This document shows positions 4,335 through 41,497 of a DNA stretch of 64,000 nt, piece after piece. The stretch lies in assembly GCA_027487845.1 (NCBI GenBank), contig JAIYCV010000026.1, positions 186,001-250,000 of the forward strand, in the 5' to 3' direction. Within the stretch, counting starts at the first letter, position 1, and the number at the start of each line of letters is the position of its first letter. This DNA is from Flammeovirgaceae bacterium. GTDB taxonomy: Bacteria > Bacteroidota > Bacteroidia > Cytophagales > Cyclobacteriaceae. The position numbers and the translations under genes are program-made. Below the pieces are notes generated by a model that searched no databases, was not told where the DNA came from, and saw nothing but the letters and a program-made list of their open reading frames with translations.

Positions 4335-4945
4335 AAGTAAAAAGGCAAGTAGTCAACTATTTTGTACTGAATTAAAATTTAAGATTCCGATCCGTTTGGT
4401 GATTTCAATCAAAGAAAAATAATCCACAATTGCTTTTCTAACCGATCCAAGACTAAGTACTACTAACAAAGTGATAATGGTAGAAAACTTGGTAGCCGAT
4501 GCCAATGCTATGAAAATCAAAGAAATTAAAAACTTTCTGTCAAAAAAAGATGAAAGCACGTGTCAACAAAAAATACAAGCCTTCGGTATAGGGTATAAAA
4601 AAAACCACAATTAGCGGTAAACAACGAAAATAGCGTACACAACTTTCATTAGCCAAGTTTGTTTTTCTCAATAAACTAAGTCCACAGATAAATTTCGCTA
4701 AATACCTTTCTCACTGTTATCTCAAAAAAAACTTCGTTGCGAGTTCAAATTTCGAGTTAGGAATTTTATTTGACTGGTATTTTTAAACCAAAATCAGGTA
4801 TTTTTAATAGACAATAATGAGATTGCCTCCGTCTTTAGGCATTAGAAGACCACTTTCTCTGTTTTTGGTTTCAATCTTCCATGAAGTATGGGCGGTGACA
4901 TGGGCTCTGGCCTTTAGTTTTGAATTACTTTTTTTTACAAATCAA
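4335..4945. other. 611-bp AT-rich intergenic region
   Basis: No convincing gene. A 68-codon leftward frame (4353-4559) and a 45-codon rightward frame (4477-4614) are open but have no recognisable family or coding character. The only structured element I see is the 21-bp-spaced direct-repeat box at 4776-4805. Confidence 0.5.
4776..4805 (-). promoter_or_regulatory. Direct-repeat box 1 (GGTATTTTT x2, 21-bp period)
   Basis: GGTATTTTT at 4776-4784 and again at 4797-4805, separated by TAAACCAAAATCA-type sequence. It lies about 440 bp upstream of the leftward sensor gene that starts at 4334. The same architecture recurs at four other places in the island. Confidence 0.55.
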
Positions 4946-5758: not shown

Positions 5759-8110
5759 TCAAAATTTAAAGCTGTAACTAATGGACGGTAAAATTGGAAA
5801 AAGTGAAAATTGAATAAATTTTTTATTGCCAGAATTGTCCCTAGATATGTCCATATAAAATGGGTTTTTTTGGCTGTATGCATTGTATATGCTAATAGTC
5901 CATTTGCGCTGTCCCCATTTCTTGTCTTTCCACCAACTGAAACTTAAGTCGAGCCTATGGTAACTATTCATCCGATAGGAGTTACGATCACCATAGAAGG
6001 TAACGTCTTGATAATAGTTTCCCCGACCTAAACTGCCAATTGCGTTAGATGCCCCTTCATAGTTTTCCACAGGTAACGTAATGGCATTACCTGTGCCAAA
6101 GACCCATGCCATCGAAAAATCCATTCGTTTTTTTAATTTTCGAGTAAGTGCAATGCTTACATCGTGCCGTCTATCATACTTGTAGGGAAATTCTTTGCCA
6201 AAATTCAACTCATCAAATTGCCTTAGCGACTTAGAAAGAGTGTAACCAAGCCATCCTGTAACAACACCCGTTTTCTTTTGCAACAGCAATTCCAAGCCAT
6301 AACTTTTGCCCTGCCCATTCACAACTACTTTATCTTGCCAATTTTCATCGGTACTTAAGTAACTAGCCCCATTCTTATACTCTATCAGATTATTCATTGT
6401 TTTATAATAAACTTCGGCACTAAACTCATATTCAGACTTATAGGTTTTAGCTAACCCAAAGGCCCATTGATTAGCTTGTTGAGGTTTTACTTTGGCCGTG
6501 CTTGGCACCCATAAATCGGTGGGAAGGCCAAGCCCCGCATTTGTCAGCAGGTGGATAAACTGAGTCATGGTGGCGAAAGAAGCTTTTATAGCAAAGTCAT
6601 TGGCAAGCAAAAGCCTGGTTGAAAGTCGTGGCTGAAGTGAGTTATAATGTTGGCCTTCAACGGAAAATGAAGAGGCATGCAACCCAAAATTTGCTTTTAG
6701 TCGATTACTTATTTTCCAATCATCCTCCGCGTAGGCGGATATTTCAAATGCATTTGTAATTGCGGCCCCTGCCACAGAATCAATTCGCTCAGACGAAGCA
6801 ATTGTCAAAACACCAGGCGAAAAGCGATGCGCTATGCCCTGTAAACCAAAACGAACAAGGTGGTTGGGTGTGGGGAAATACTCAAGGTCAACCTTAGTGG
6901 CAACATCCCTGATACCAGAAAAGTATTGGTTTTGATAGTATAAATTTTTGGTAGGTAAATTTGCTTGCGTTTGAGTTTGCTGAAAGTTTTGAGATATATC
7001 GAACAAGTACCTGCTGTATGTTGCACTAAAATTGCCGAAAAGCTTCGGGTGAAACACATGATTCCATCGCATGGCAGTTATTATGTTGCCCCATTTTAAA
7101 CCAAAGGCGTCTTTCTCATCATATTGAATTGACCCACTACCATAACTACTTTTTGATTGGGCGTAGGCCTTGTCATCGCCTAGGTAGGTGCTTAAATAAA
7201 GTCTATTGTTTGGGTTTATAATATGATTGAATTTCAAATTCAAATCGTAGAAATAATACCCAAAAGAGTTTTGGCTTTGAATAAAAGGTTGAGCTAATAA
7301 ATCAATATAAGTACGTCTAGCTGAGAAAATAAATGAAGTTTTGTCCTTTAAAATCGGCCCTTCTACGGTGGCCTTGGCGGCTATGATACCGATAGAGCCT
7401 TCGCCTTTTATTTTTTTCATGTCGCCATCTTTCATATTGATATCGATAACCGAGGAAAGGCGGCCACCATAGCGCGCAGGAAATCCACCCTTTACCAATT
7501 CCACATGATTGATGGCATCGGCATTAAATACAGAGAAAAAACCAAACAAATGCGATGCGTTATAAATGGGCACATCATCAAGTAAAATTAAATTCTGGTC
7601 TGCTCCACCTCCTCTTACATACAGACCTGTACTGCCCTCGTTACCCGATTGAACACCCGGCATTAACTGCAAAATTTTAAAAATGTCAACCTCCCCCATA
7701 AATGCAGGTAGTGCTTTTATTTGCTCAATAGGCACACTAAAACTGCTCATTTTAGTGCTTTCATGGATTTCTTCTGCTTTAGTCGAGGTTACCACTATTT
7801 CGTTGAGTGTTACCGCAGACGACATGGTCGCGTTGATAACAGTGTCGTTTACCAGTTTAAATTTTACCAAAATAGGCTGGTAGCCAACATAGCTATACAC
7901 TAAGGTTATTGAATCGCTTGGTAGTGTAAGGCTATAAAACCCATGGGCATTCGCAGTGGTACCCAAAGAGTTTTTAGGTTGAAAGATAGAAGCACCAATA
8001 AGGCTTTCACTCGACTCGTTATCTTTTACATAACCGCTAATGGTAAATTTCTGAGAAAAAATGATGGTATTAAAACTCAGATAAAAAATGAAGAGAAGAA
8101 CAATCCTCAT
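5759..8110 (-). CDS. TonB-dependent receptor with carboxypeptidase-regulatory-like N-terminal domain
   Basis: A 783-residue outer-membrane receptor. After the signal peptide comes a carboxypeptidase regulatory-like beta-sandwich (about 20-105, FTISGYVKDNESSESLIGAS). The plug follows (about 120-225, with LMPGVQSGNEGSTGLYVRGG and VELVKGGFPARYGGRLSSVI). The C-terminal barrel ends SYSFKF. It is the first gene of an operon with the DUF4249 lipoprotein. The N-terminal domain has a close but broken paralogue at 9147-9428. The substrate cannot be told from sequence. Confidence 0.93.
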   Translation of the reverse strand: MRIVLLFIFYLSFNTIIFSQKFTISGYVKDNESSESLIGASIFQPKNSLGTTANAHGFYSLTLPSDSITLVYSYVGYQPILVKFKLVNDTVINATMSSAVTLNEIVVTSTKAEEIHESTKMSSFSVPIEQIKALPAFMGEVDIFKILQLMPGVQSGNEGSTGLYVRGGGADQNLILLDDVPIYNASHLFGFFSVFNADAINHVELVKGGFPARYGGRLSSVIDINMKDGDMKKIKGEGSIGIIAAKATVEGPILKDKTSFIFSARRTYIDLLAQPFIQSQNSFGYYFYDLNLKFNHIINPNNRLYLSTYLGDDKAYAQSKSSYGSGSIQYDEKDAFGLKWGNIITAMRWNHVFHPKLFGNFSATYSRYLFDISQNFQQTQTQANLPTKNLYYQNQYFSGIRDVATKVDLEYFPTPNHLVRFGLQGIAHRFSPGVLTIASSERIDSVAGAAITNAFEISAYAEDDWKISNRLKANFGLHASSFSVEGQHYNSLQPRLSTRLLLANDFAIKASFATMTQFIHLLTNAGLGLPTDLWVPSTAKVKPQQANQWAFGLAKTYKSEYEFSAEVYYKTMNNLIEYKNGASYLSTDENWQDKVVVNGQGKSYGLELLLQKKTGVVTGWLGYTLSKSLRQFDELNFGKEFPYKYDRRHDVSIALTRKLKKRMDFSMAWVFGTGNAITLPVENYEGASNAIGSLGRGNYYQDVTFYGDRNSYRMNSYHRLDLSFSWWKDKKWGQRKWTISIYNAYSQKNPFYMDISRDNSGNKKFIQFSLFPILPSISYSFKF

Positions 8111-8536: not shown

Positions 8537-9139
8537 TTATTCTACAGGCACTTCAACGTGTCCTTCAAAATAGAAACCCGCTTTATTTTTTAGAATGTAG
8601 TCCGCGATCCTCTCAGTAATATTTACCGCGCGGTCTAGCTTGTAAAATCGAGAATCAAGGTCGTCAAAATTCTTGTCCAATTTATCCAACGCTATCCTTC
8701 TTTCTGTTCGATCAAAGCTCGGTCTTGTCTCAAACCGTTTAGCAGATTCTTCAATAATTTCTTTTCCTTCAATTAGTCCAATCAGTTCAAAGCCGTTCAT
8801 CGCATCTTCCCAAACGATGCCTGTTGAATTGGAATAGAATTGAGAATGTCCACCATTGTCAACTTCGTAAATGTACCACATCATCGCAAATACTGCTCGT
8901 TGATGAGAAGAGAATGGTTGCAGGTTCTTTTCATATTCGTCCTTCGAGTCTTCAATGCTTACTGACAACCACAAAGGCTGGATTACTTTCATCGGGTCTC
9001 GTGCTTCGATCACTTTTTCGTCAATTTTCATATGTTCCATTTTCGTTCTTGTCCCAGTATCAAGGCTACATGACAATACAAATTGCCCAAGAAGTATAAT
9101 TAATAAAAGTTGTCTGGCTTGTCTCACAATATTGCACAT
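8537..9139 (-). CDS. DUF4375 (DMP19-like) domain lipoprotein
   Basis: 200 residues. A signal peptide ends in lipobox FVLSC (Cys about 24). The mature part contains QRAVFAMMWYIYEVDNGGHS followed by QFYSNSTG, the hallmark N-G-G-x-x-Q-(F/Y)-x-x-N-S pattern of DUF4375, then a helical tail. The family's biochemical function is not established; such genes are often scattered and mobile in Bacteroidota. Here it lies between a structured repeat on its 3' side and a TonB-receptor remnant that begins 8 bp upstream of its start, so it may have arrived as a small cassette. Family assignment rests on the NGG motif by eye. Confidence 0.72.
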   Translation of the reverse strand: MCNIVRQARQLLLIILLGQFVLSCSLDTGTRTKMEHMKIDEKVIEARDPMKVIQPLWLSVSIEDSKDEYEKNLQPFSSHQRAVFAMMWYIYEVDNGGHSQFYSNSTGIVWEDAMNGFELIGLIEGKEIIEESAKRFETRPSFDRTERRIALDKLDKNFDDLDSRFYKLDRAVNITERIADYILKNKAGFYFEGHVEVPVE

Positions 9140-9146
9140 AAAAATG

Positions 9147-9428
9147 TTATTGACTCGGTCGGTAGTGTAAGGCTATAAAACCCGCGGGCGTTTTAGGTTG
9201 AAAGATATCAGCACCGATAAGGCTTTCACTCAATTCTTTATCTTTTACATAACCGTTGAGGGTAAATTTCTGAGCAGGAAGTAGAGTACTAAAGCTTACT
9301 AATGCAAAAATCACAAGGAGAAACTTGTTTTTTAAAAAGTGAATTTCGCCATAGATATTATCTGTGGCCTTGGTTAATATTAGGTGCATTAAAGAAGATG
9401 AAACTAACGAATTGATAACTTTTCTCAC
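9147..9428 (-). pseudogene. Remnant of a second TonB receptor (signal peptide and part of the regulatory-like domain)
   Basis: The frame encodes a signal peptide (KNKFLLVIFALVSFSTLLPA) and then QKFTLNGYVKDKELSESLIG, nearly the same as the start of the receptor at 5759-8110. After IFQPK a deletion of about 26 bp relative to the intact paralogue shifts the frame, so the GFYSLTLP region continues only out of frame. DNA similarity stops at about 9147, next to the DUF4375 gene. The rest of the receptor (more than 650 residues) is absent, so the gene is dead. Confidence 0.8.
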
Positions 9429-9903: not shown

Positions 9904-11598
9904 TTATTCTAAGGCTCGTTGAGTAGTCCTTATTTCAGAGTCCAATTTCTGCGCTAATTCATTAATGGTATCTACAAAACCCTCTTTTTCCTGAACCGTC
10001 AATTGATTATTTTTATAAAGGTTCATCAGCCCAAGAATTGTTGCCACGGGTGCTCTCAGCTTATGAGCATTGACAAATGCAAAGTTTATTAGCTGTTGAT
10101 TTTTATTTTCAAGTTCAATGGTGCGCAACCTAACCTTAGTGTCTAGCTCGGCATTCATTTCTAATAACTTTCTATTGAATTCATCTATTTTTTTAATTTT
10201 CGATGCTCTTTGCTTAATGTTAAGATATAAAGAAGTGGTAAGAACGATGGCAAGCAATGAAACGACAAGAAGCACAACTCTTTCATTGCGCTTTTCTTTG
10301 TTTAACAAATTAAGAATCTCGTTTTGCTTGATATAATTCTCTTTAAGCAATAATTCCTGCATACCTAACGGGTTTGTTAGTGAATCTGCTTTCTTCTTAT
10401 AGTCTACATATTTTATGGTTGACTCTAATTCCTTTGAACGCTCACCCAACAATTTGTAATACCTACTTTCAATTTGATATGTCCTTGCTAATATTTCAAA
10501 GAACCCATTTGTCTCAGCAAATTTTTTATTTCGCGCCAACATAATTAATGTGCTATCATAATTGTGCTGCTCTAAAAATGTTTCAGCCATAAGATTCAAG
10601 CCTATTGCCTCATCTAGATACTCAATTTTTTCATCGGCTTCCTTTATCAGCTTATCAAGTAGAATTTTGGCAGTTTGAAGTTCACCTTCAGATACTTTAA
10701 TTTTAGCCAACTCGCGAAGCGGAACCCCTACATAATGAATTTCAGAATCCCAACGATTTATTTCTTTTTCCAGATAAATTTTAAGACTATCCATCTTCCC
10801 CAGCTTTGTATAGTAGTCAGCCCAATGTTTTGCATGGTAAGGGCTGGAGGTAAATTTTACCAACAGTGGTCTCGCGCTGTCATATTTGCCTGTAGCAATA
10901 TAATAATCCACCATGGTTGCTTCATGGCTTACAATTAGGTTAGGCCACTTCTTATAGTCAAAAAAATTTACCTTCACCTGATCATAAACCTTCTTTTCAA
11001 CCAAAGTATTATTTAACCTTGATTGGGTATTTGCTATCATTAATTCAGCATATGGGGCATCCTTGGTTAAGATTTCCATTATTCTCATTAATGAATAGAC
11101 TTGGCCGATTGTATTTTCGCGGATATACATAACCTCGGAAAGGGCCGTGTAACAGAGTGCTTTTACTATCGGGTCTTTTGAAGTTTCGGAAATTCTTTCA
11201 AGTTCTTTTAAATACGCTTGTTTTTTATCATCTGGAAAATACATCAACTTCGTAAGTGCTTCAACTATATAAAATTCATTTTTGATTTTGGTCGCTAATT
11301 TTAGTTCTTCCAAGATTTCTGGCAAACAGATCTCAGACCTTATCTTAGATTGAACATATATGTAAGTATCCAACCAAAGGAGGCTATCCTCAATAGTTGT
11401 TGCCTTTGATATTGCGTTTTTAGCAGTTTGAGGCTGAAGCTTAGAAGTTCTTATTTTTAAATACAGATCGTAGCTGTCGCTCTTGGGGCTTTCAAAGCTA
11501 TTTAAATAATAAAGTAGCGCGAGAACAGTAGTTGATAAAACTGTTAGCCAAAGTCCTTTCGAGAAATATTGACTCATGCATTTTTTTATTGAAAACAA
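9904..11598 (-). CDS. TPR sensor protein ending in a DHp domain, no kinase domain (paralogue 2)
   Basis: A 564-residue sensor. An N-terminal membrane segment precedes a TPR-like helical region that is closely similar to the hybrid kinase at 11727-14672 (shared SYDLYLKI and RSEICLPEILEELKLATKI). A second membrane segment (ERVVLLVVSLLAIVLTTSLY, about 440) and a coiled coil follow, then a DHp hairpin with H-box NFAFVNAHKLRAPVATILGL (His about 512). It ends RTTQRALE, right after DHp helix 2. As in 2643-4334, there is no HATPase domain. It lies 128 bp downstream of the complete kinase in the same orientation, so the two may be co-transcribed and act as partners. Confidence 0.83.
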   Translation of the reverse strand: MFSIKKCMSQYFSKGLWLTVLSTTVLALLYYLNSFESPKSDSYDLYLKIRTSKLQPQTAKNAISKATTIEDSLLWLDTYIYVQSKIRSEICLPEILEELKLATKIKNEFYIVEALTKLMYFPDDKKQAYLKELERISETSKDPIVKALCYTALSEVMYIRENTIGQVYSLMRIMEILTKDAPYAELMIANTQSRLNNTLVEKKVYDQVKVNFFDYKKWPNLIVSHEATMVDYYIATGKYDSARPLLVKFTSSPYHAKHWADYYTKLGKMDSLKIYLEKEINRWDSEIHYVGVPLRELAKIKVSEGELQTAKILLDKLIKEADEKIEYLDEAIGLNLMAETFLEQHNYDSTLIMLARNKKFAETNGFFEILARTYQIESRYYKLLGERSKELESTIKYVDYKKKADSLTNPLGMQELLLKENYIKQNEILNLLNKEKRNERVVLLVVSLLAIVLTTSLYLNIKQRASKIKKIDEFNRKLLEMNAELDTKVRLRTIELENKNQQLINFAFVNAHKLRAPVATILGLMNLYKNNQLTVQEKEGFVDTINELAQKLDSEIRTTQRALE

Positions 11599-11726: not shown

Positions 11727-14672
11727 TTAAACTTTCCCATATTCACTTGGTGATTTGTTAAATTTATTTTTAAAGCATTTAGTGAAATAAGATTGATCGT
11801 TAAACCCAACTGAATAGGCTATCTGAGAGATGGTATCTGTTTTTTGGCTGATCATCTGTGCAGCCTTGGTTAAGCGCAAATCGCGTATAAATTCATTAGG
11901 AGATAAGTTGGTTAAAGCTTTCATTTTTCTATTTAGGTGAGTTCTACTTAATCCCATTTCTTCCGCCATTTTTTCAACGCCAAATGATACTTCCACCATA
12001 TTGCTTTCAACCACTTTACGCAATCTAATTAGAAACTTTTCATCCAACGATAGTTCTTCACCCTGCGTTGGCAACACTAATATCCTTTCGTTAAATTTCG
12101 TAGCTAATTTTTTGCGCTGGTGAATCAAATTTCTAATCCTTACTTTTAACTCTTCATTAGAAAAAGGCTTAGCTAGGTAATCATCAGCGCCTGAATTTAA
12201 ACCATCAAGTTTCGACTTTAATTCGTTCTTCGCAGTCAACAATATCACGGGAATATGACTGGTTCGTTCATCTTCCTTTATTTGCCGCGTAAGCTGAATT
12301 CCATCTATTTTTGGCATCATTAAGTCGCTCAGTATTAAATTTGGTAAGTTCTTCAATGCCAGCCCAATTCCTTCTTCACCATCTTTAGCCAACAATACAT
12401 CGTATTCCACAGACAACATTGAAGCCATGTACTTTCTCATATCGTCATGATCCTCCACAATCAGCACAATTTCCTTTCCACTAACAAATTCCTCGCTTAT
12501 AACCTCATTTGCCTGGTCATCCATCGAACGAGAAAGTGTATGCGATTTTTTCGTTTTTGATTCACTCAAATTACTTGGTGAGAAAATCGCTGGGTTAGTT
12601 GGAATCTCGACAGTGAATTGTGTGCCCACGTTTTCTTCAGTTTTAAGATCAATTTTGCCCCGATAAAGCGATACTAATTCATGAACAAGAGACAATCCTA
12701 AACCAGTACCCTGCTGAAGGGAGTCTCTTGTTTGGAGTATCTGGTAAAAAGGGGAAAATATCTCAGATCGATTCAATTCAGGAATTCCATTGCCTGAGTC
12801 ACTGACTAAAATAACTAATCTCTCGCCTAATTGTTTAATTTCCAGCCTTATTGATCCTTTTTCTGGTGTGAATTTAAATGCGTTAGATAACAGGTTATTT
12901 ATTATCTTTTCAATGGCGTCTATATCGCACCATATAGCTGTTTCATTTAACAGGATATTTTTTTCAAAACTCACTTGCTTGTATTCTGCCAAAGAGTCAA
13001 AAGCTGCCACCACCGCTTTAACTTCTTGATCAACTCGTTGATATTTTATTTGCAGCTTCATTTTTCCTGCATCAAGTTTTGAAAGGTCTAGAAGCTGATT
13101 AACAAGTTCTAAGAGGCGATTGGCGTTGCGTTGCATGAGGGCAAAAACCTCCATTTGCTCTGGCTTGGCTTTCTTCACTTGCTCCTCAAGTGGCGAAAGC
13201 AACAATGTGATTGGCGTTCGAAATTCATGTGAGATATAGGCAAAGAATCTCGACTTGAGTGTATCGGTCTGCATCAATTTTTCATTAAGTTCTCTTTGAC
13301 GCTTAAGCAGTACTTTATTCGCGTAAAAAGAAGTTGTGATAATCAATGCTAGAATAGCAATAGTGACTAATACAATTCGCTCATCGCGCTTTTGCTTAGT
13401 TAATAAGCTGAGAATTTCACTCTGTTTGTTATAGTTATCTTTAAGAACTAATTCCTGAATGCCGAGGGGGTTTGACAGTGAATCTGCTTTTTTTCGGTAA
13501 AGTAGATACTTGATGGATGACTCTAATTCATGTGTATGCTCGCCTATTTGTTTAAAAAACTTACTTTCGATTTGATAGGCTGTTGCAAGAATATCAAAAA
13601 AGTCTTTTTCTAACGTCAGTTTTTTTGCTCGATCTAATACAATTCGGGAGCTATCATATTTATGTTGTTCCAAAAAAATTTGGGCTAATAGATTCAAACC
13701 AATTGCCTTATCTCGATAGTGCCATTTTTCATCAGCCTCACTAATTAACCTGTTAACTATCCTTTTGGCAGGCTCAAGTTCACCGTTGGCAATTTTAATT
13801 CTTGCCAATTCACGAAGTGGAACTCCAACATAATTAACTTCCGGATTCCAACGATTAATCTCTTTTTCAAGATATATTTCGAGACTATCCATTTTTCCTA
13901 CTTTTGTATAGTAATCAGTCCAGAGTTTAGCATCGTAAGAGTTGGTTGTATAGTTAGACAATAACGTTCTTGCAGAGTCGTATTTGCCAACGGCAATAAA
14001 ATAATCCAACATAGTTACGTCATTAGTTTTGACTAGATGTGGCCATTTTTCTTGGTCAAAAAAATTTCTCTTCACTTGATCATGCGCATTTATTTTAACC
14101 AAAATCCTATTTAACCTTAGCTGAGTATTAAGAATCATTAATTCAGCATAAGGGGCATCCCTTTTTAAGGTTTCCATTGTCTTCATCAACCAGTAAACTT
14201 GATCGACTTTATTTCCATTTCTAAACATACGCTGGGAAATGGCCGAATAACAGAGTGCTTTTACAAAGGGGTCTGCTGAAGTCTCGGCAATCCCTTTAAA
14301 CCTTTTTAAACTTGTTTCCTCTTTATACTCAGGAAAAGAACTTAAATACCGAAGCGCTTCGACTGTATAATATAGATTGTTAATTTTAGTTGCTAACTTT
14401 AGTTCTTCCAAAATTTCAGGAAGACATATTTCAGATCTTATCCTCGATTGGCTAGTGATATAAGTATCCAACCAAAATAGACTGTCCTCGGTAGTCCTTG
14501 CCTCAGATATAGAGTTTTTGGCCGCTTGAGGTTGAATATCAAAAGTTTTTATTTTTAAATACAGATCGTAGCTGTCGTTCCTGCGTGGTCTATAGTTCCA
14601 CAGATAATAAAAAATCAGCAAAGCTGGTACGAATAAAAATATGACCCTGAATCGCTTGAAAAAATAAATCAT
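11727..14672 (-). CDS. Hybrid sensor kinase: TPR sensor, DHp, HATPase, receiver, AraC DNA-binding domain
   Basis: A 981-residue one-protein two-component system. In order: an N-terminal membrane segment; a TPR-like sensor (about 30-430); a second membrane segment (about 445-465); DHp with H-box SHEFRTPITLLLSPL; an HATPase domain with N box NNLLSNAFKF, G1 VSDSGNGIP and G2 GTGLGLSLV; a receiver with acidic pair VEDHDD, phospho-Asp in LILSDLMMPKIDG and KP motif; and an AraC-type HTH (about 880-981, ending NKFNKSPSEYGKV). All catalytic residues I can check are present. The layout is that of Bacteroidota hybrid two-component regulators, except that the sensor is TPR-like and not a beta-propeller. 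It is the best candidate to bind the 21-bp direct-repeat boxes in the island. Confidence 0.93.
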   Translation of the reverse strand: MIYFFKRFRVIFLFVPALLIFYYLWNYRPRRNDSYDLYLKIKTFDIQPQAAKNSISEARTTEDSLFWLDTYITSQSRIRSEICLPEILEELKLATKINNLYYTVEALRYLSSFPEYKEETSLKRFKGIAETSADPFVKALCYSAISQRMFRNGNKVDQVYWLMKTMETLKRDAPYAELMILNTQLRLNRILVKINAHDQVKRNFFDQEKWPHLVKTNDVTMLDYFIAVGKYDSARTLLSNYTTNSYDAKLWTDYYTKVGKMDSLEIYLEKEINRWNPEVNYVGVPLRELARIKIANGELEPAKRIVNRLISEADEKWHYRDKAIGLNLLAQIFLEQHKYDSSRIVLDRAKKLTLEKDFFDILATAYQIESKFFKQIGEHTHELESSIKYLLYRKKADSLSNPLGIQELVLKDNYNKQSEILSLLTKQKRDERIVLVTIAILALIITTSFYANKVLLKRQRELNEKLMQTDTLKSRFFAYISHEFRTPITLLLSPLEEQVKKAKPEQMEVFALMQRNANRLLELVNQLLDLSKLDAGKMKLQIKYQRVDQEVKAVVAAFDSLAEYKQVSFEKNILLNETAIWCDIDAIEKIINNLLSNAFKFTPEKGSIRLEIKQLGERLVILVSDSGNGIPELNRSEIFSPFYQILQTRDSLQQGTGLGLSLVHELVSLYRGKIDLKTEENVGTQFTVEIPTNPAIFSPSNLSESKTKKSHTLSRSMDDQANEVISEEFVSGKEIVLIVEDHDDMRKYMASMLSVEYDVLLAKDGEEGIGLALKNLPNLILSDLMMPKIDGIQLTRQIKEDERTSHIPVILLTAKNELKSKLDGLNSGADDYLAKPFSNEELKVRIRNLIHQRKKLATKFNERILVLPTQGEELSLDEKFLIRLRKVVESNMVEVSFGVEKMAEEMGLSRTHLNRKMKALTNLSPNEFIRDLRLTKAAQMISQKTDTISQIAYSVGFNDQSYFTKCFKNKFNKSPSEYGKV

Positions 14673-14929
14673 AATTTATACTGTATTGATGTATAAAATT
14701 GCAATTTAAGTTTTGATTTGATAAAACGCACCTTGATCGGCCAATTATTGCCTGGGTCACCGGCTCAATTGACTTTCATTCGTCAATTAAAAAGCTATAG
14801 CTTTTTGATAAGGTTATGTGTTTCAAACTTTATAGATAGAACTTGTGTTGATGGTTCGAGGCCTATTGGCAAGAAGACAATTACTCTAAACATTTCATTT
14901 CCCGTTTAGTTCGCGGTGTCTATTTTAAC

Positions 14930-17946: not shown

Positions 17947-18363
17947 CTAACCCGCTAACGTATTTTTCTTGACCTCAACAGCCTGGTAGAACACGTCCAT
18001 CTCATCCAGTTGCTTTTCTATAAGGGTAATTTCCATCTCTTTCTCCAACAGGGGTACAACCCCGTATTGGTCGCTTTGCTCGTTTAGCGTAAAAAGGTGG
18101 TACTCTGCTTTTGTTTTCTTTACACTGGCATCATCTTTCGCATCGCCTTCGGGCAACGTTGCCAAAATAGTGGTAAGGGCACTAATCTCGGTTTTGGTAA
18201 GCGCCAAGTCGCTCGTAATCTTGGTAGATCGCTCCAGGTAGTTGGCATGGCTTCGCTGAAGCGTTAGTTTTTTGTACTGTAAATCCGATTTTTCTTTGTT
18301 TACCAAAGCCTGCAAGGAGTTACAATCGGCCGCAGTTTGTAGTTTCTCAATTGAGTAGTCCAT
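17947..18363 (-). CDS. Coiled-coil protein of unknown function
   Basis: 138 residues, cytoplasmic, highly helical, with long charged heptad-like stretches (LEKEMEITLIEKQLDEMDVF). No catalytic motif or signal peptide. It is leftward and directly upstream of the XRE regulator, with the operator array in between, and shares the regulator's higher GC content. The two are probably a functional pair, with this protein either read into the array or controlled by it. I do not recognise the family. Confidence 0.65.
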   Translation of the reverse strand: MDYSIEKLQTAADCNSLQALVNKEKSDLQYKKLTLQRSHANYLERSTKITSDLALTKTEISALTTILATLPEGDAKDDASVKKTKAEYHLFTLNEQSDQYGVVPLLEKEMEITLIEKQLDEMDVFYQAVEVKKNTLAG

Positions 18364-20435: not shown

Positions 20436-22220
20436 CTACCCAATCTCCTCCGCTTGCATTTGCTTGTCATATAATTCGCTATAAGCACCTCCTTTTTCAA
20501 TCAGACTTTCGTGTGTGCCCTCTTCTACCATTGCACCATCGTGTAGAACAATTATTTTATTCGCCAGCTTGGCTGAGGAAACACGATGCGAAATAATAAT
20601 GCTCGTTCGCCCTTCCATGATTTTCTTCATGCTGTTGAGAATGGTGTTTTCTGTTTTTGTATCTACAGCCGAAAGCGCATCATCTAGCATCAATATTTTA
20701 GGTTCGCGCACAATAGCGCGGGCAATAGACACGCGTTGTTTCTGTCCACCCGACAGTGTAATGCCTCGTTCGCCAACGCGGGTGTTAAAGCCTTGTGGGA
20801 AGGCCATAATATTATCGTATACATCGGCATCTTTGGCAGCTTGTTTTATTTTATCTTCATGCGGAGTAGCCAATCCAAATGAGATGTTATTGTAAATGGT
20901 ATCACTAAACAAAAACACATCTTGAGGTACTGTGCCTATTTGACTTCTTAAACTTTCTAATCTGTACTCCTGAATCAAAATATCGTCAATAAAAATCGCT
21001 CCTTTTGTAACATCATATAGGCGACCTATCAGCGTTGCCGTAGTACTCTTGCCTGAACCAGTGGTGCCAATAATAGCTAGCGATTCTCCCGGATTAATCG
21101 TGAATGAAAGGTTCTTCAATGCCTTCACGCCAGTGTCGGGATACTCAAATGAAACATTTCTAAATTCAATTTTTCCGGCAAGTTCCCTTTCAATATTCTT
21201 TGTGGTTACAATGTCCGTCTTGGTTTTTAAAAATTCATTGATCCGTTTTTGCGAAGCTTCTGCACGCTGAACCTGGCTGCTTGTCCAGCCTAGTAGCGTT
21301 ACTGGCCACGTAAGAATATTTACGTAGATGATAAATTCAGCGATATTGCCAAATGTTAAGTTTTCTTTTATAACCTCCACGCTTCCGGCATATACTGTCA
21401 AAACACTGCTCAACCCCACCAAGCCTGTAACAAGCGGAAAAAACAATGCCTGCACACGTGTAAGTTTCATTGATTGATGCTTATAGATATCGCTCTCTTT
21501 CGTGAAATTGTGAACCGATTCTTGTTCCCGCGTAAAAGACTTCAACACCCGAATTCCAGAAAAAGCTTCTTGCACAAATGTGCTTAATCGCGATTGACTT
21601 TTCTGAATTTCTTCAGAGCGCTTCTCGATTACAGTATTCACAAAAAAGATGCTGATGGATAAAAACGGCAGAGGAAGTAAGGCAAAGAGAGTGAGTTTCA
21701 CACTAATGCTCAACATAAAAGGTATGAGCATTAAAAACAAGGTTATCAATGTTAATCCATACATTATTGATGGCCCCACATACATGCGCACTCGGCCCAC
21801 GTCTTCGGAAATCCGGTTCATCAAATCTCCCGTGTTATTTCTTCTATAAAAACTTAATGGTAAAGTCTGGTAATGATTGAAAATTTCGTTCTTAAGATCA
21901 AACTCCACCCAACGGCTCATTACAATCAACGTTTGCCTAACGTAATACAAAAAAAGTCCTCGAAGCAACGCCACCACTAAAATGAGAATGGCGTAAAGTA
22001 AAATCCCTTTGGTGAATTCGGTAAAGAAATCAGCGGGTACGTTGTCTTTCGGCAATGCTTTAAAGGCCTTAATATTGTTGATAACGAGATCAATAGAGTA
22101 GCGAACGAGGGCACCTGGCAAAATCTGAAAAGCGTTTGAAATGATAACAAAAAAGAGCCCCCAAATGAGGTAACGCTTGTACTTTACTAAGTATTTGTTG
22201 ATGTACTGAAGTTCTTTCAC
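20436..22220 (-). CDS. MsbA-like ABC exporter, fused permease and ATPase
   Basis: A 594-residue half-transporter that would act as a homodimer in the inner membrane. Six transmembrane helices occupy about residues 15-310. The nucleotide-binding domain has Walker A GTTGSGKST at 385, signature LSGGQKQR at 489, Walker B ILMLDD just after, and switch His in IIISHR. The family exports lipids (lipid A in the case of MsbA), drugs or peptides; the substrate here is open. The 3' end is duplicated at 2277-2439. The gene is divergent from nusB, which starts 156 bp away. Confidence 0.94.
   Translation of the reverse strand: MKELQYINKYLVKYKRYLIWGLFFVIISNAFQILPGALVRYSIDLVINNIKAFKALPKDNVPADFFTEFTKGILLYAILILVVALLRGLFLYYVRQTLIVMSRWVEFDLKNEIFNHYQTLPLSFYRRNNTGDLMNRISEDVGRVRMYVGPSIMYGLTLITLFLMLIPFMLSISVKLTLFALLPLPFLSISIFFVNTVIEKRSEEIQKSQSRLSTFVQEAFSGIRVLKSFTREQESVHNFTKESDIYKHQSMKLTRVQALFFPLVTGLVGLSSVLTVYAGSVEVIKENLTFGNIAEFIIYVNILTWPVTLLGWTSSQVQRAEASQKRINEFLKTKTDIVTTKNIERELAGKIEFRNVSFEYPDTGVKALKNLSFTINPGESLAIIGTTGSGKSTTATLIGRLYDVTKGAIFIDDILIQEYRLESLRSQIGTVPQDVFLFSDTIYNNISFGLATPHEDKIKQAAKDADVYDNIMAFPQGFNTRVGERGITLSGGQKQRVSIARAIVREPKILMLDDALSAVDTKTENTILNSMKKIMEGRTSIIISHRVSSAKLANKIIVLHDGAMVEEGTHESLIEKGGAYSELYDKQMQAEEIG
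20439..20595. repeat. Right copy of the 157-bp direct repeat bracketing the island
   Basis: Lies inside the intact exporter gene and matches 2283-2439. See the left copy for the boundaries. Confidence 0.88.
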
Positions 22221-30469: not shown

Positions 30470-31000
30470 ATGAAAAAACTAAAACTCGATGAACTAGGAA
30501 GAATTTCAGTTGACGAATTCAAAGAATCTAAAAAACTTCCCGTTTGTATTTTATTAGATAATGTTAGAAGCCTGCACAACGTGGGTTCTACATTTCGCAC
30601 AGCCGATGCATTTAAAATAGAAAAAATTATCCTTACGGGAATAACAGGCACGCCTCCACACCGCGAAATACAAAAGACCGCCCTAGGTTCCACCGAATCG
30701 GTTAGTTGGGAGTATGTTGAAAATGCAGCCTTGGCCGCTCAAAATTTAAAAACAGAAGGCTATAAAATAGTAGCCATTGAACAAACCAACGAGAGCAAAC
30801 CACTGCAAGAATTTGAGCCAGTAGCTTCAGAAAAATATTGCCTTGTATTTGGCAACGAAGTGGATGGTGTAAGCGATGAAGTAATGGCGCTGTGCGACTT
30901 AGCCTTAGAAATACCGCAAGGCGGCACCAAGCATTCGCTTAACATTTCTGTTTGTGTAGGTGTTGTGACGTGGGAGGTTTTTAGGAAGCTAAGCAACTAA
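30470..31000 (+). CDS. TrmH/SpoU-family RNA 2'-O-methyltransferase
   Basis: 176 residues from the ATG at 30470; an in-frame TTG three codons earlier overlaps the promoter element. The three SpoU motifs are present: LLDNVRSLHNVGSTFRTADA, LVFGNEVDGVS and IPQGGTKHSLNISVCVGV. It transfers methyl from S-adenosylmethionine to ribose in tRNA or rRNA, using the knotted C-terminal fold. There is no N-terminal substrate-binding extension, so the RNA target is unclear. Confidence 0.92.
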   Translation: MKKLKLDELGRISVDEFKESKKLPVCILLDNVRSLHNVGSTFRTADAFKIEKIILTGITGTPPHREIQKTALGSTESVSWEYVENAALAAQNLKTEGYKIVAIEQTNESKPLQEFEPVASEKYCLVFGNEVDGVSDEVMALCDLALEIPQGGTKHSLNISVCVGVVTWEVFRKLSN

Positions 31001-31056
31001 TACAGCTTCAATTTTCTTTTTGTAACCCAATTTCTTTTTTCAATACAAAACTCATT

Positions 31057-31158
31057 TCAAGCAGCCGCGAAGATTACGCTGATGAGAATAATAAAGTCAA
31101 GCATGAACAACAAAACCTTAAACCATTTCGGCAATTCATTCCATTCCTTCAAATTCAT
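31057..31158 (-). CDS. Small 33-residue membrane peptide
   Basis: ATG to TGA encodes MNLKEWNELPKWFKVLLFML then DFIILISVIFAAA: an amphipathic start, Pro-Lys-Trp, then one hydrophobic helix. The pattern is typical of genuine small membrane proteins and codon use looks normal for this genome. It lies between the methylase and the restriction unit and is antisense to both. No family recognised. Confidence 0.42.
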   Translation of the reverse strand: MNLKEWNELPKWFKVLLFMLDFIILISVIFAAA

Positions 31159-31256
31159 AACTTACTGTTTAGAAATGTCTGTTTAAATGAGAAATTAATA
31201 CGGTTTTGAGGGATGAATAGTTGTAAACCAGAGTGTTTTGAGGTCTTGCGACTTTA

Positions 31257-31352
31257 CAAGAAGTACTAACTTGCGCATTCAAAACAATTTGAAATTTGAC
31301 TTCCGATCGTTATCACCAGCTCGGTGTTTCCGCTGCCAAAGAAGATGTTTGC
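31257..31352. repeat. Left copy of the direct repeat bracketing the restriction-modification unit
   Basis: Matches 34126-34216 (the purM promoter region and first 18 codons) with roughly one difference in eight plus small indels. AAGAAGTACTAACTTGC and TCCGATCGTTAT are shared. Confidence 0.85.
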
Positions 31353-31379
31353 ACAAATTTAAAGAGTCGAATATGCTAA
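31296..31379 (+). pseudogene. purM 5' fragment, now a 27-codon leader ORF
   Basis: TTG-started frame encoding TSDRYHQLGVSAAKEDV, the beginning of PurM (compare TSDRYNQRGVSASKEDV at 34162), then non-homologous codons to TAA at 31377-31379. The TAA overlaps the ATG of the restriction gene (31373) in the sequence ATGCTAA, so the fragment may couple translation into it. Confidence 0.75.
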
Positions 31380-32323
31380 AAATATCGTTTGAAGACTGGA
31401 AAAACAGTATGTCATTTATGATTGATGACAATTTTGATAATAACTTTTTACTTTCAATAGAGCCGCTCACTCGGTTTATAAATCAGAATTGTCAACTATT
31501 TTCAAATGCTGAGCCGCTCTCCATTTTTTTGACTTCGGATAGTGAACTTAAAGCCGTTGATAAGTTAAAGGCGTTTGTTTCTCTAATAGGTTTATCCGAA
31601 GAACGGCTCAAAAGAGTTGTATCGTTAGTGCGATTCAGATTCTATCAAGAAGATTTTAAATCTGAATGGACGGTAAATCAAATAAGCAGAAAACTAATTA
31701 CCGATAAAGGGTTTAAAGATTTGATGATTGAATTCTTTATCGATGGCCGAAACTCTCAAATTGGAGCAGAAATACCGCTTTACTACATGAAGAATTTCAA
31801 ATTGACCGACCAAGAGTTTATATCAGAACTAAGAAATTATAAGTATGTTGAAAGAATATTAAACGATAATGAAATCCAAGGAAAATATTCTAATGAAGTT
31901 GGCGCGCATGTCGAACGAATCATCCAAACCAAGCTAGAGGATTATAAGGAGCATATCAATGCAACCTTGCAATATGAAATTCAGAAAGAATTTCCACTAC
32001 TGAATAAGAATATTGATTTCCTAATCCCAAGTGTTAATTCTCCAATCATTTTAATTGAATCATCTTACAACATTACAACTGGAAGTGGCCAATCAAAAAG
32101 GGCAGATCAACTGGTCGAATTTTATGGAACATTAATGCGGCACAATGCAAACCATAGGGCTAACAAAATAATCATTCTAAATTACTGCGATGGCTTTGGT
32201 TGGGTTGGAAGACAAAACGATCTTCATAGAATTTATGACGCAAGCGATTTTGTCTTCAACCAAAGAACAATTAATGTACTGGATGTTGTTTTGAATGAAT
32301 ATATTCCAAATCCAATGGCCTAA
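31373..32323 (+). CDS. Type II restriction endonuclease
   Basis: 316 residues from the ATG at 31373; the frame is open further upstream, but that part reads through the purM remnant in a wrong frame. The C-terminal half has NKNIDFLIPSVNSPIILIES followed by SYNITTGSGQSKRADQL, the spacing of a PD-(D/E)xK nuclease core of the DpnII-like type (acidic residue, hydrophobic strand, Glu, then GSG). It is convergent with and overlaps the cytosine methyltransferase, its presumed cognate. The recognition site is not predictable. Confidence 0.8.
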   Translation: MLKISFEDWKNSMSFMIDDNFDNNFLLSIEPLTRFINQNCQLFSNAEPLSIFLTSDSELKAVDKLKAFVSLIGLSEERLKRVVSLVRFRFYQEDFKSEWTVNQISRKLITDKGFKDLMIEFFIDGRNSQIGAEIPLYYMKNFKLTDQEFISELRNYKYVERILNDNEIQGKYSNEVGAHVERIIQTKLEDYKEHINATLQYEIQKEFPLLNKNIDFLIPSVNSPIILIESSYNITTGSGQSKRADQLVEFYGTLMRHNANHRANKIIILNYCDGFGWVGRQNDLHRIYDASDFVFNQRTINVLDVVLNEYIPNPMA

Positions 32324-33653
32324 TTTTCCGACTTAGAAAAACGTCTGTTGTCTCGGCTACTTTAGATACAACAAATTCAACGACTGGAACTGCAACCGTG
32401 TTACCTAATAGATCAAAAGCGTCATCTTCTTTGACGGGAATTTCGTACCATTCTGGATAGCCAAAAAGCCGCAAGCCCTCTCTTATGGTTAATCGTCTTA
32501 ACCCTTCACCATCAGGCACAGCAAGGCGCGATACATCCGTTGCTACTAACGTTGGTGCAATTGAATTTGGATCTAAAATCTTATTTATCTCAAAACTAAG
32601 CTTGCCCGTAACAATGTTGTAACCCTTTGGCTTTGTCAAATCATATTCTCGATAAGTCTTGATGCCATTTTCAGTTGGTTCTTTCACAAGTTTTTTTGGA
32701 TATTCAAATTTTAAATATCCTTTTTCCACTAAATCATCAAGCATTTTTTTAAGTTCTGCTTTCGTTTTTTTTATAAAGGTATTGATCTGCTCTAACGTTA
32801 ACGTCATACCATCCATCCATTCAATTCCGATTTCTTCGGCCCACTGTTTCCTTCTTCGTTCCTTAAAAAGCTTATTTAATAAACGGCATTGTTCAACCGA
32901 GACTTCACCTTTTATCCCAATGTCCCAACTATGAATATTGTTATCGCCACCTCTTTTATCTTTGATCGATTTGCCATACAGATCTTCAATTTTAAAATGC
33001 GACAATAGTTTGTCAACAAAGTCCGATTTTAAAGGGCTGAGGCCTTTCTGCAAAATACTTTTAAGGGTATTGAATATAGGTTCATTGCCGTCTAGATTAA
33101 CTTTCTCGTTTTTGGTACCAACAATAAAAATGCGTTTCCTTGATTGGGGTAATCCAAATTCCAATGAGTCAAAGACTTTCCACGATACTTTATATTTCAA
33201 ATCATTTTCAAGTGTGTTTAATATAGTTGAAAGCGTTCTGCCTATTTCATGGTTCTTGGTCTCCAAGTCATGCTTTACAAGCCCTTCAACATTTTCCAAA
33301 ATAAAGCCATAAGGTTTTTTATCTCTTAAAATGCGCTCGATTTCAAAAAAAAGTGTGCCTCTTGTATCTAAAAAGCCTTGTCTTTTACCACTCGCACTAA
33401 ATGGTTGGCAAGGGAAACCGCCAAGAAGAAAATCGAAGTCAGGAATAAATTCATTTTCGATTTCGAAAATATCTCCTGCCAAAAAATTATGAGCGAAGTT
33501 ATGTTTTAAAGTTTTTACTGCGTACGGTTTAATTTCGGAGGTCATTACACATTCGGTTTCATAACCAAGATTTTTAAACACGTTTTCAAAGCCTAGCCTT
33601 ATTCCACCAAGTCCGGCAAACAAATCAATGAATTTAATTTTCTTATTTTCCAT
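32271..33653 (-). CDS. DNA (cytosine-5) methyltransferase
   Basis: 460 residues starting MENKKIKFIDLFAGLGGIRL. Motif I (DLFAGLGG), motif IV with catalytic Cys (GGFPCQPFSASGKRQGF), motif VI (FILENVEGL), motif VIII (QSRKRIFIVG), motif IX (TIREGLRLFGYP) and motif X (DLLGNTVAVPVVEF) are in the canonical order. It adds a methyl at C5 of cytosine to protect sites from the partner nuclease. It overlaps the 3' end of the HTH gene by 11 bp and the 3' end of the nuclease gene by 53 bp. Confidence 0.96.
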   Translation of the reverse strand: MENKKIKFIDLFAGLGGIRLGFENVFKNLGYETECVMTSEIKPYAVKTLKHNFAHNFLAGDIFEIENEFIPDFDFLLGGFPCQPFSASGKRQGFLDTRGTLFFEIERILRDKKPYGFILENVEGLVKHDLETKNHEIGRTLSTILNTLENDLKYKVSWKVFDSLEFGLPQSRKRIFIVGTKNEKVNLDGNEPIFNTLKSILQKGLSPLKSDFVDKLLSHFKIEDLYGKSIKDKRGGDNNIHSWDIGIKGEVSVEQCRLLNKLFKERRRKQWAEEIGIEWMDGMTLTLEQINTFIKKTKAELKKMLDDLVEKGYLKFEYPKKLVKEPTENGIKTYREYDLTKPKGYNIVTGKLSFEINKILDPNSIAPTLVATDVSRLAVPDGEGLRRLTIREGLRLFGYPEWYEIPVKEDDAFDLLGNTVAVPVVEFVVSKVAETTDVFLSRKIRPLDLEYIHSKQHPVH

Positions 33654-33933
33654 TGTTTTCTTTTTTAGAATAATTGATTTCTGGCTCGGCAGCGATAGGA
33701 AATACATTTTCATACTCCTCTATTTCAATTCTTGAACAGCCTATAACCGAAAGGCATTGAAGGAAAAATGAGGCGCTAAAACTGCCACGGCTAATTTTGC
33801 TATCGATGCTCGCCTTTGTCTCCGTTTCCCCTATCTCCTTTAAAAGTAATGCTAGATCTGTATTCGATATGCCTCTTTTAACTAATTCCGATTTAAGCAA
33901 TCGCTTGGCTTTATCATTCCAGTTAACCATCAT
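33643..33933 (-). CDS. DUF6471 HTH-like protein, probable restriction-modification controller
   Basis: 96 residues. NWNDKAKRLLKSELVKRGIS and SKISRGSFSASFFLQCLSVI fit DUF6471, a small helix-turn-helix-like family often found beside modification enzymes. It precedes the methyltransferase and overlaps it by 11 bp. Upstream, TTATG(C/T)GCAAA-like motifs recur at about 33985-34019, possible operator sites. A controller role is inferred from position. Confidence 0.76.
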   Translation of the reverse strand: MMVNWNDKAKRLLKSELVKRGISNTDLALLLKEIGETETKASIDSKISRGSFSASFFLQCLSVIGCSRIEIEEYENVFPIAAEPEINYSKKENNGK

Positions 33934-34009
33934 TAGAGAAAATGTTTTTTGCGAAATTATGCAATAATTATCATATATGACAATTTATGTGCAAAAATAA
34001 GAATTTATT

Positions 34010-34165
34010 ATGCGCAAACGAATATTGACCAAATGGCCTAAAAACATTAAACGGTGGCTAAAAAGAATCTTCGATCTACCTTTTAAGAGGAGTATAAATA
34101 AGATTATGCTCTTAACGGGTAGGAAAAGAAGTACTAACTTGCATTCAAAACAACCAGAAATTTGA
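34010..34165 (+). CDS. Possible 51-residue Lys/Arg-rich leader peptide before purM
   Basis: ATG to TGA encodes MRKRILTKWPKNIKRWLKRI and a further basic stretch. The TGA overlaps the purM TTG start (TTGA at 34162-34165). Very basic and amphipathic at its N terminus. The last 13 codons lie in the duplicated purM leader. It could be a chance frame; no family recognised. Confidence 0.28.
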   Translation: MRKRILTKWPKNIKRWLKRIFDLPFKRSINKIMLLTGRKRSTNLHSKQPEI

Positions 34166-34216
34166 CCTCCGATCGTTATAACCAGCGCGGTGTTTCCGCA
34201 TCAAAGGAAGATGTGC
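34126..34216. repeat. Right copy of the direct repeat bracketing the restriction-modification unit
   Basis: Contains the purM promoter region and codons 1-18 of the intact gene. Partner of 31257-31352. Confidence 0.85.
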
Positions 34217-35328
34217 ACCAAGCCATTCAAAAATTAGACAAAGGGCTTTTCCCTAAAGCCTTTTGCAAAATTGTACCCGATTTTTTGGCCAATGATCCTG
34301 ACTATTGCACGGTAATGCATGCCGATGGCGCGGGGACTAAATCATCGCTGGCATATTTGTATTGGAAAGAAACGGGCGACCTCTCGGTGTGGCGCGGCAT
34401 TGCGCAAGATGCCATCATCATGAATGTGGACGACTTGCTTTGTGTGGGGGCAACTCAAAATATTTTGCTTTCATCTACCATCGGAAGAAACAAAAATCTG
34501 ATTCCCAGTGAGGTGATTTCGGCCATCATCAACGGCACTGAAGAAGTACTTGAAATGCTTCGCAACAATGGATTAAATATTATCAGCACGGGTGGCGAAA
34601 CGGCCGATGTAGGCGATTTGGTGCGCACCATTATTGTAGATAGCACGGTAACGGCTCGTATGAAACGCTCTGAAGTTGTGTCGAATCATACCATTCAGGC
34701 GGGCGATGTTATTGTTGGACTTTCTTCGTTTGGTCAAGCCTCGTACGAAAACGAATACAATGGGGGCATGGGCAGCAACGGCCTTACTTCTGCGCGACAC
34801 GATGTGTTTTCAAATGTATACGCAACTAACTATCCTGAGTCATTTGATGCAGCCGTTCCAGCCAGCCTTGTTTATTCCGGAAAGTATTTACTTACAGATA
34901 CAATTCCTGAGTCTCCGCTAACTGTCGGCAAACTGGTGCTATCACCCACCAGAACGTATGCTCCAATTATTGTAAAAATATTGGCAGAGTTACGAAACCA
35001 ACTTCATGGCATTGTGCATTGTAGTGGCGGTGGACAAACCAAGGTGCTGCACTTTGTTGATAATCTCCATATCATTAAAGATAGCCTGTTTGATGTTCCT
35101 CCCTTGTTCAAACTGATTCAAGAACAGTCGGGCACCGACTGGAAAGAGATGTATAAAGTATTTAACATGGGGCATCGCATGGAACTCTATTTGAACGAAA
35201 AGATATCCTCACAGGTAATTGAACTTTCTAAAAGCTTTGGTGTAGATGCTAAGATTATTGGCAGGGTAGAGCCTTCAGATAAAAAGCAACTTACCATCTC
35301 AACAAGCAATGGCGTTTTTGAATATTAA
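34162..35328 (+). CDS. purM: AIR synthetase (phosphoribosylformylglycinamidine cyclo-ligase), Bacteroidota type
   Basis: 388 residues from a TTG start (TSDRYNQRGVSASKEDV). There is no in-frame ATG nearby, and the duplicated leader keeps the same TTG. The ATP/substrate region VMHADGAGTKSSLAYLYW and STGGETADVGDLVRTIIVDS are diagnostic for the AIR synthase fold. It converts FGAM to AIR in purine synthesis. The Bacteroidota form is longer than the approximately 345 residues of E. coli PurM and forms a distinct subfamily, so the enzymatic assignment is by family. Confidence 0.88.
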   Translation: MTSDRYNQRGVSASKEDVHQAIQKLDKGLFPKAFCKIVPDFLANDPDYCTVMHADGAGTKSSLAYLYWKETGDLSVWRGIAQDAIIMNVDDLLCVGATQNILLSSTIGRNKNLIPSEVISAIINGTEEVLEMLRNNGLNIISTGGETADVGDLVRTIIVDSTVTARMKRSEVVSNHTIQAGDVIVGLSSFGQASYENEYNGGMGSNGLTSARHDVFSNVYATNYPESFDAAVPASLVYSGKYLLTDTIPESPLTVGKLVLSPTRTYAPIIVKILAELRNQLHGIVHCSGGGQTKVLHFVDNLHIIKDSLFDVPPLFKLIQEQSGTDWKEMYKVFNMGHRMELYLNEKISSQVIELSKSFGVDAKIIGRVEPSDKKQLTISTSNGVFEY

Positions 35329-41424: not shown

Positions 41425-41497
41425 GGTGACGTAGCTCAGTTGGTAGAGCAAAGGACTGAAAATCCTTGTGTCGGGGGTTCAATTCCCTCCGTCACCA
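41425..41497 (+). tRNA. tRNA-Phe (anticodon GAA)
   Basis: 73 bases with all four arms: acceptor GGTGACG/CGTCACC, D arm GCTC/GAGC, anticodon stem AAGGA/TCCTT with loop CTGAAAA, T arm GGGGG-TTCAATT-CCCTC (one G-U pair). Discriminator A; the CCA end is not encoded. Confidence 0.97.

Follow-up and report, generated by a model that had tools for sequence, protein, structure and literature searches.

A restriction-modification unit between two copies of the start of purM in a Flammeovirgaceae bacterium

The DNA considered here is a stretch of 64,000 nt from a Flammeovirgaceae bacterium (GenBank assembly GCA_027487845.1, contig JAIYCV010000026.1, positions 186,001 to 250,000; the whole stretch is called the window, and positions are counted from its first letter). 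In it, a restriction-modification (R-M) unit is set between two copies of the start of purM. The copies form a direct repeat on the + strand, 31258..31348 and 34126..34214, which aligns over 91 columns at 86.8% identity (E ~1.6e-23 on comparison of the window with itself) and has an ungapped core of 74 nt. It consists of 36-38 nt of purM leader, the TTG start (at 31296 in the left copy and 34162 in the right copy) and ~17 codons. The left copy stands in a native-like upstream context. The right copy is continuous with an intact purM (34162..35328, +, 388 aa) with AIRS domains PF00586 and PF02769; its best model is TIGR00878 at 110 bits, yet this lies below the model's own cut-off of 236. Between the copies lie a nuclease gene, a methyltransferase gene and a DUF6471 gene, and spacers of 24 nt (left) and 192 nt (right) separate these genes from the copies. 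Both the duplication and the content of the interval had been proposed in a sequence-only reading of the window. Alignment finds the similarity to be well beyond chance, with coordinates that shift by a few bases at most, and open reading frames (ORFs) and domain matches bear out the three genes.

We hold with moderate confidence that a travelling R-M module was inserted into the start of purM with a long target duplication, probably by host joining. The direct basis for this account is the repeat, the gene content, the single leaders found in relatives and the differing sites of the unit elsewhere; the joining mechanism, the expression of the genes and their regulation are inferred. When 31240-31372 was searched against the whole genome, only the two copies came up at E <0.1 (the next best match has E 0.15), and a genome-wide repeat family, being incompatible with two places only, was rejected. 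No transposase or recombinase gene was found among the genes between the copies, by ORF list or by domain search, and repeat comparison disclosed no inverted repeat of at least 20 nt linking the two ends of the unit. As for other kinds of insertion site, 30900-34400 gave no Rfam match that would point to an RNA element, and the sole tRNA of the window is at 41425.

For comparison, 34 purM loci of the same genus were fetched, and five further loci were checked for a second leader. None was present in any of the 37 loci that offer 1.3 kb or more of upstream sequence (two others, which have 24 and 65 nt, were left out of this count); the best chance-like leader match outside the window among the fetched loci is 31 nt long. 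Relatives that lack the R-M genes thus show one purM leader and not two. The left neighbour of the repeat in the window is a gene for a SpoU/TrmH-type RNA methylase (30470..31000, +; PF00588, E 8.4e-34). A trmH-type gene lies upstream of purM, in the same order, in 27 of the 34 loci: in four it is directly adjacent (52-79 nt), and in 23 it is separated from purM by 829-6517 nt of unrelated genes. It was not found near purM in the other seven, two of which are at contig ends and one of which belongs to the closest relative, G004 (purM 86% identical), where other genes lie upstream of purM. The expectation of the sequence-only reading that trmH, a single leader and purM would be contiguous in relatives is supported for the single leader and, in 27 of the 34 loci, for gene order, with direct adjacency confined to those four loci.

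The closest relative also gives polarity to the comparison of the two copies. They differ from each other at 10 of 89 gap-free columns (12 of 91 columns overall) and from G004 at 18 (right copy) and 19 (left copy) of the gap-free columns. When G004 is taken as the outgroup, the copies agree against it in 13 columns, four changes fall in the purM copy and five in the left copy, and one is ambiguous. The 13 uniting columns make the duplication younger than the split from G004, and the counts would place it at roughly half the depth of that split, with a wide error. Ahead of the left copy the DNA is similar to that preceding purM in G004 (5 of 500 shuffles reach the score); ahead of the right copy it is not (449 of 500 do). 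A left copy with native upstream DNA and a right copy with native downstream DNA are what is expected of an insertion with target duplication. Arg codon 8, invariant in 38 of 38 relatives, is lost in the left copy.

The nuclease of the unit is present in two of 62 genomes of the genus. The second of these, G471, has the complete gene trio (L272:7155-9709), with the nuclease starting 17 nt after a fumarase-like gene (named by eye) and no flanking repeat in self-comparison; its purM, ~0.79 Mb from the unit on the same contig, shows one leader and no more over the 3.1 kb that were checked. Apart from the present genome, none of the 62 carries the unit at purM. Among 395 sampled genomes of the class, seven have a match, mostly weak. 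A scan of one genome per species yielded 17 distant loci, 16 with a nuclease 65-79% identical to that of the window and one in which only its ends are kept. Matches (tblastn) to all three genes were obtained in 15 of the 17, a count that includes one DUF6471 match cut by the locus end and one nuclease without its middle. The gene neighbours of the unit differ among these loci, and three genes that stay together beside differing neighbours point to a horizontally travelling module. Some features of these loci were noted in passing. At L088:6001-6247 the middle of the nuclease gene has been lost and the methyltransferase and DUF6471 genes are kept. In several flavobacterial loci (L072, L073, L077, L080, L082), motifs of the form GTTACC(T/C)... 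were seen by eye, in inverted orientation, near both ends of the unit; these are perhaps cassette-like ends.

Similar brackets, in which a duplicated gene end or leader encloses an accessory block, occur elsewhere in the genome. They were sought in 1.58 Mb (contig C33 and parts of C26, C15, C38, C23, C5, C10 and C25), which gave 27 direct and nine inverted repeat pairs with the same filter. Nine of the direct pairs, the purM/R-M pair among them, were judged to be brackets of accessory blocks; the choice was made by eye and was not blind. The 18 pairs set aside are repeats within one gene, paralogues, multi-copy AT-rich or REP-like repeats and a doubtful rearranged pair at 511-523 kb of C26. 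(There, at 511429-523483 of C26 of this genome, G000, L215-L216, two gene pieces recur at 97% and 87%, their order altered, on either side of an 11 kb block; this is a rearranged partial duplication.) A second bracketed case had been claimed for the window and proves real: the 3' end of an ABC-transporter gene (20436-22220, -) is copied at 98% identity 18 kb away (2283-2441 / 20439-20597), and no recombinase was seen among the large ORFs of the enclosed block. Also in the window, a TonB-receptor-like 5' end (7902-8055 / 9143-9274, 75%) lies around a DMP19-family gene (8537-9139). The ABC and TonB genes are not within 1.5 kb of each other in the relatives examined.

Among the other brackets, the 3' end of proC is repeated around a 477-aa gene (L116:16316-16457 / 17961-18104, 87.5%), a block that is missing from G004, where the proC end is single. 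The 5' end of a 132-aa gene is repeated around an ORF6N gene. A transporter 3' end lies around a CAAX-protease-like gene (L156:11173-11239 / 12104-12169, 90%); this duplication is shared with G004 at equal spacing, ~930 nt, and is therefore older. The 3' end of a 241-aa gene surrounds ParDE and an IS200-like transposase (L168:9108-9180 / 10593-10664, 89%), and a repeat reaching into a uridine-kinase-like 3' end surrounds UPF0175/DUF3368 (L180:13738-13812 / 14611-14680, 84%). Lastly, an identical 31-nt terminator-like repeat behind glutamine synthetase lies around HicAB (L186:4066-4096 / 4592-4622); HicA/HicB was not found behind glutamine synthetase in 15 relatives, with flanks of at most 1.5 kb. 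That several accessory modules of one genome, toxin-antitoxin pairs among them, stand between duplicated sequences of a similar kind hints at a common way of insertion.

Several observations weigh against insertion with duplication of the target. An empty trmH-purM site is not seen in G004, and trmH and purM adjoin directly in so few of the 34 loci. The changes between the purM copies fall evenly, four in the functional copy against five in the left; when three brackets are pooled, eight are in the working gene and 19 in the fragment (p 0.052). It is thus unproven that the copies began identical and the left one then decayed. The left copy has GCTGCCAAAGAAGATGT, which is letter for letter what stands in the working purM of a congener (L101); this fits an allele that had diverged beforehand. 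In a 0.4 Mb sample of another genome, G031, one of nine direct pairs was judged by eye to be a bracket, so that the presence of brackets in the present genome is supported and their excess is statistically unproven. Finally, a long flanking direct repeat was found in only one (L079) of 17 other occurrences of the unit tested. Flanks were compared for 16 distant loci (L081 excluded), and G471 by self-comparison; some flanks are short (L077, 194 and 251 nt; L079 right, 265; L082 right, 352; L072 right, 919). The L079 repeat (1834-1929 / 4743-4837) is a 96-nt direct repeat at 85%, judged by eye to be palindromic and intergenic in an array-like locus, and L083 has inverted, not direct, flank repeats of 61 and 71 nt. 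With one of 17 occurrences, and that one palindromic, long duplication as a trait of the R-M unit itself was rejected.

The duplication seems, rather, to follow the host genome more than the R-M unit. Similar duplications surround unrelated modules here, and at its other sites the unit mostly lacks them, which is why joining by the host is favoured. The module, with convergent nuclease and methyltransferase genes followed by the DUF6471 regulator gene (nuclease > < methyltransferase < DUF6471), would have been joined into the start of purM after the split from the nearest sequenced relative. The join would have copied ~91 nt of the target, namely the end of the promoter region, the TTG and ~17 codons; one copy would have stayed ahead of the module and the other would have rebuilt the start of purM behind it. 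The duplication most likely arose as the host joined the incoming DNA, either by end joining of an illegitimate, replication- or repair-type kind or by template switching. The left copy, placed before the nuclease, would then serve as its transcription and translation leader and purM would continue from the right copy; the methyltransferase would protect the DNA and DUF6471 would act in a control-protein-like way. More tentatively still, we suggest that a host insertion route may put small selfish or defensive modules (R-M, HicAB, ParDE, UPF0175/DUF3368 and others) beside core genes and duplicate, beyond the module, 31-159 nt of the neighbouring gene end, leader or terminator, leaving the core gene intact.

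Homology-facilitated illegitimate recombination offers a different origin for the purM arrangement, and one that we consider rather doubtful. A related strain that already carried the unit ahead of purM would have supplied the DNA, with homologous exchange inside purM on the right and an illegitimate join inside the recipient's purM start on the left, and the two alleles would have differed from the outset. In recombination of this kind (PMC5361080; also PMC3240628), one homologous and one illegitimate end could give the same structure; it predicts alleles already diverged before insertion. Such an origin needs no duplication step, would explain the 13% divergence without great age, and gains from the match of GCTGCCAAAGAAGATGT to a working congener purM. 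It is also helped by the codon-position differences over seven brackets, 11/13/30, with an excess at third positions compared with one third (p 6e-4). That excess is partly expected from selection on the working copy, however, and does not decide between the models. The 13 states that the copies share against G004 would require a donor closer than any genome examined, and no such donor, with the unit at purM, is among the other genomes of the genus.

It is unlikely that the purM region was first duplicated in tandem over a greater length, and that most of one copy was then lost and the unit entered in between, as separate events. Partial gene copies and tandem rearrangements are present in this genome (C26, ~511-523 kb), but at least two events are called for, and the remnant would have to lie exactly at the edge of the unit, 24 nt before the nuclease start. 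Very improbable is a site-specific element that integrates at the 5' end of purM and restores the gene, in the manner of integrases that supply a new gene start; purM is indeed rebuilt in frame, but no recombinase gene lies between the copies and the R-M unit is found at other sites elsewhere. Chance similarity or an assembly artefact, which a draft of 51 contigs might bring to mind, is dismissed on the E value, on the two places only in the genome, on the 12 differing columns (not one sequence placed twice by the assembler) and on the position of the locus inside a 382 kb contig.

The inserted genes have the make-up of a type II R-M system, with a methyltransferase and an endonuclease that are both of known families, and cleavage and protection at one site would be expected of it. 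The endonuclease (31373..32323, +, 316 aa) matches DpnII (PF04556) at 30.6 bits, above the cut-off of 23, and BanI (PF24447) at 27.4 bits, slightly below the cut-off of 28; NCBIfam and PADLOC searches gave no match. Its structure model has a mean pLDDT of 77.9, and a fold search with it gave no secure match, the best being a weak one to BstEII (E 0.025, TM 0.35). The C5 cytosine DNA methyltransferase (32271..33653, -, 460 aa; PF00145, E 2.7e-75; TIGR00675, E 2.8e-96; M.HhaI, E 4.7e-44) is, on these sequence matches, securely assigned to its family. Its gene is convergent to that of the nuclease and overlaps the 3' end of the latter.

The third gene, DUF6471 (33643..33933, -, 96 aa; PF20075, E 5.6e-26), encodes a predicted helix-turn-helix protein. 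The model has four helices with mean pLDDT 94-98 over residues 11-60. In Foldseek the top rows are POU domains and HipB is listed, no match reaching E <0.001; the control proteins C.EcoT38I (rank 9, E 0.42, rmsd 1.6) and C.BclI (rank 17, E 0.53) also appear. A promoter- or operator-like element, TTGTCATATATGATAATTATTGCATAATTTCGCAA, stands 15 nt before the gene (33934..33990, -), and a similar element lies 12-18 nt ahead of it in 10 of 16 loci, according to a pattern that was drawn up once the loci had been inspected. DUF6471 may act like an R-M control (C) protein, for which a helix-turn-helix of the lambda-repressor type and control of the nuclease gene through an operator would be expected. 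Type II systems with a C protein share with this one a nuclease, a methyltransferase and a small helix-turn-helix protein. Unlike those systems, the small gene here precedes the methyltransferase gene and not the nuclease gene, and DUF6471 has no sequence match to solved C proteins up to E 5. The literature searched yielded no mention of DUF6471.

How the nuclease is expressed is suggested by its left flank. From the left TTG, a 27-codon frame (31296..31379, +) reads as purM-like LTSDRYHQLGVSAAKEDV... and then continues with other residues. The TAA that ends this frame (31377-31379) shares bases with the start of the nuclease gene in the sequence ATGCTAA. This arrangement suggests that the nuclease is read from the purM-derived leader, possibly by translational coupling to the left frame. 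That nuclease and purM both keep a promoter, as had been proposed, is conjectural. The consensus promoter of the phylum, as given in passages of PMC6847099, has a -33 TTTG and a -7 TAnnTTTG, and the match in either copy is poor by eye (CTAACTTGC). The duplicated stretch begins so close to the TTG that it could hold at most a -7-type box, with the -33 region outside.

The purM case is a further instance of a known phenomenon, R-M insertion with long target duplication. The original accounts of it are said to be those of Nobusato et al. (2000) and Furuta et al. (2010). Reviews (passages of PMC3874152, also PMC3031569 and PMC1643837) state that the target duplications made when some R-M systems insert are long and variable, on the order of 100 bp. 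Shared with the cases described there are direct repeats of ~100 bp, the lack of a transposase and a single target where the unit is missing. Those cases, so far as the same passages go, come mainly from comparisons of Helicobacter pylori strains, whereas the target here is the start of a core gene and its copies are 13% apart; also unlike them, similar brackets here enclose modules other than R-M. For toxin-antitoxin modules with long target duplication, PMC2654758 holds the phrase, in the part available, as the title of a reference only, and the passages of PMC3874152 speak of R-M systems, which is no proof that such insertions are unpublished.

It is a long-standing question how R-M and toxin-antitoxin modules get into chromosomes when no transposase is at hand. 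The purM locus allows one unit to be compared at a duplicated site and at unduplicated sites, in a genome that has brackets of different ages, so that one can probe which of the two, module or host, makes the duplication. A nuclease placed behind the copied start of a core gene suggests a way for a new toxic gene to be expressed without harm to the host gene. If the proposed host route is true, long target duplication would mark the capture of modules in general and would not be peculiar to R-M systems.

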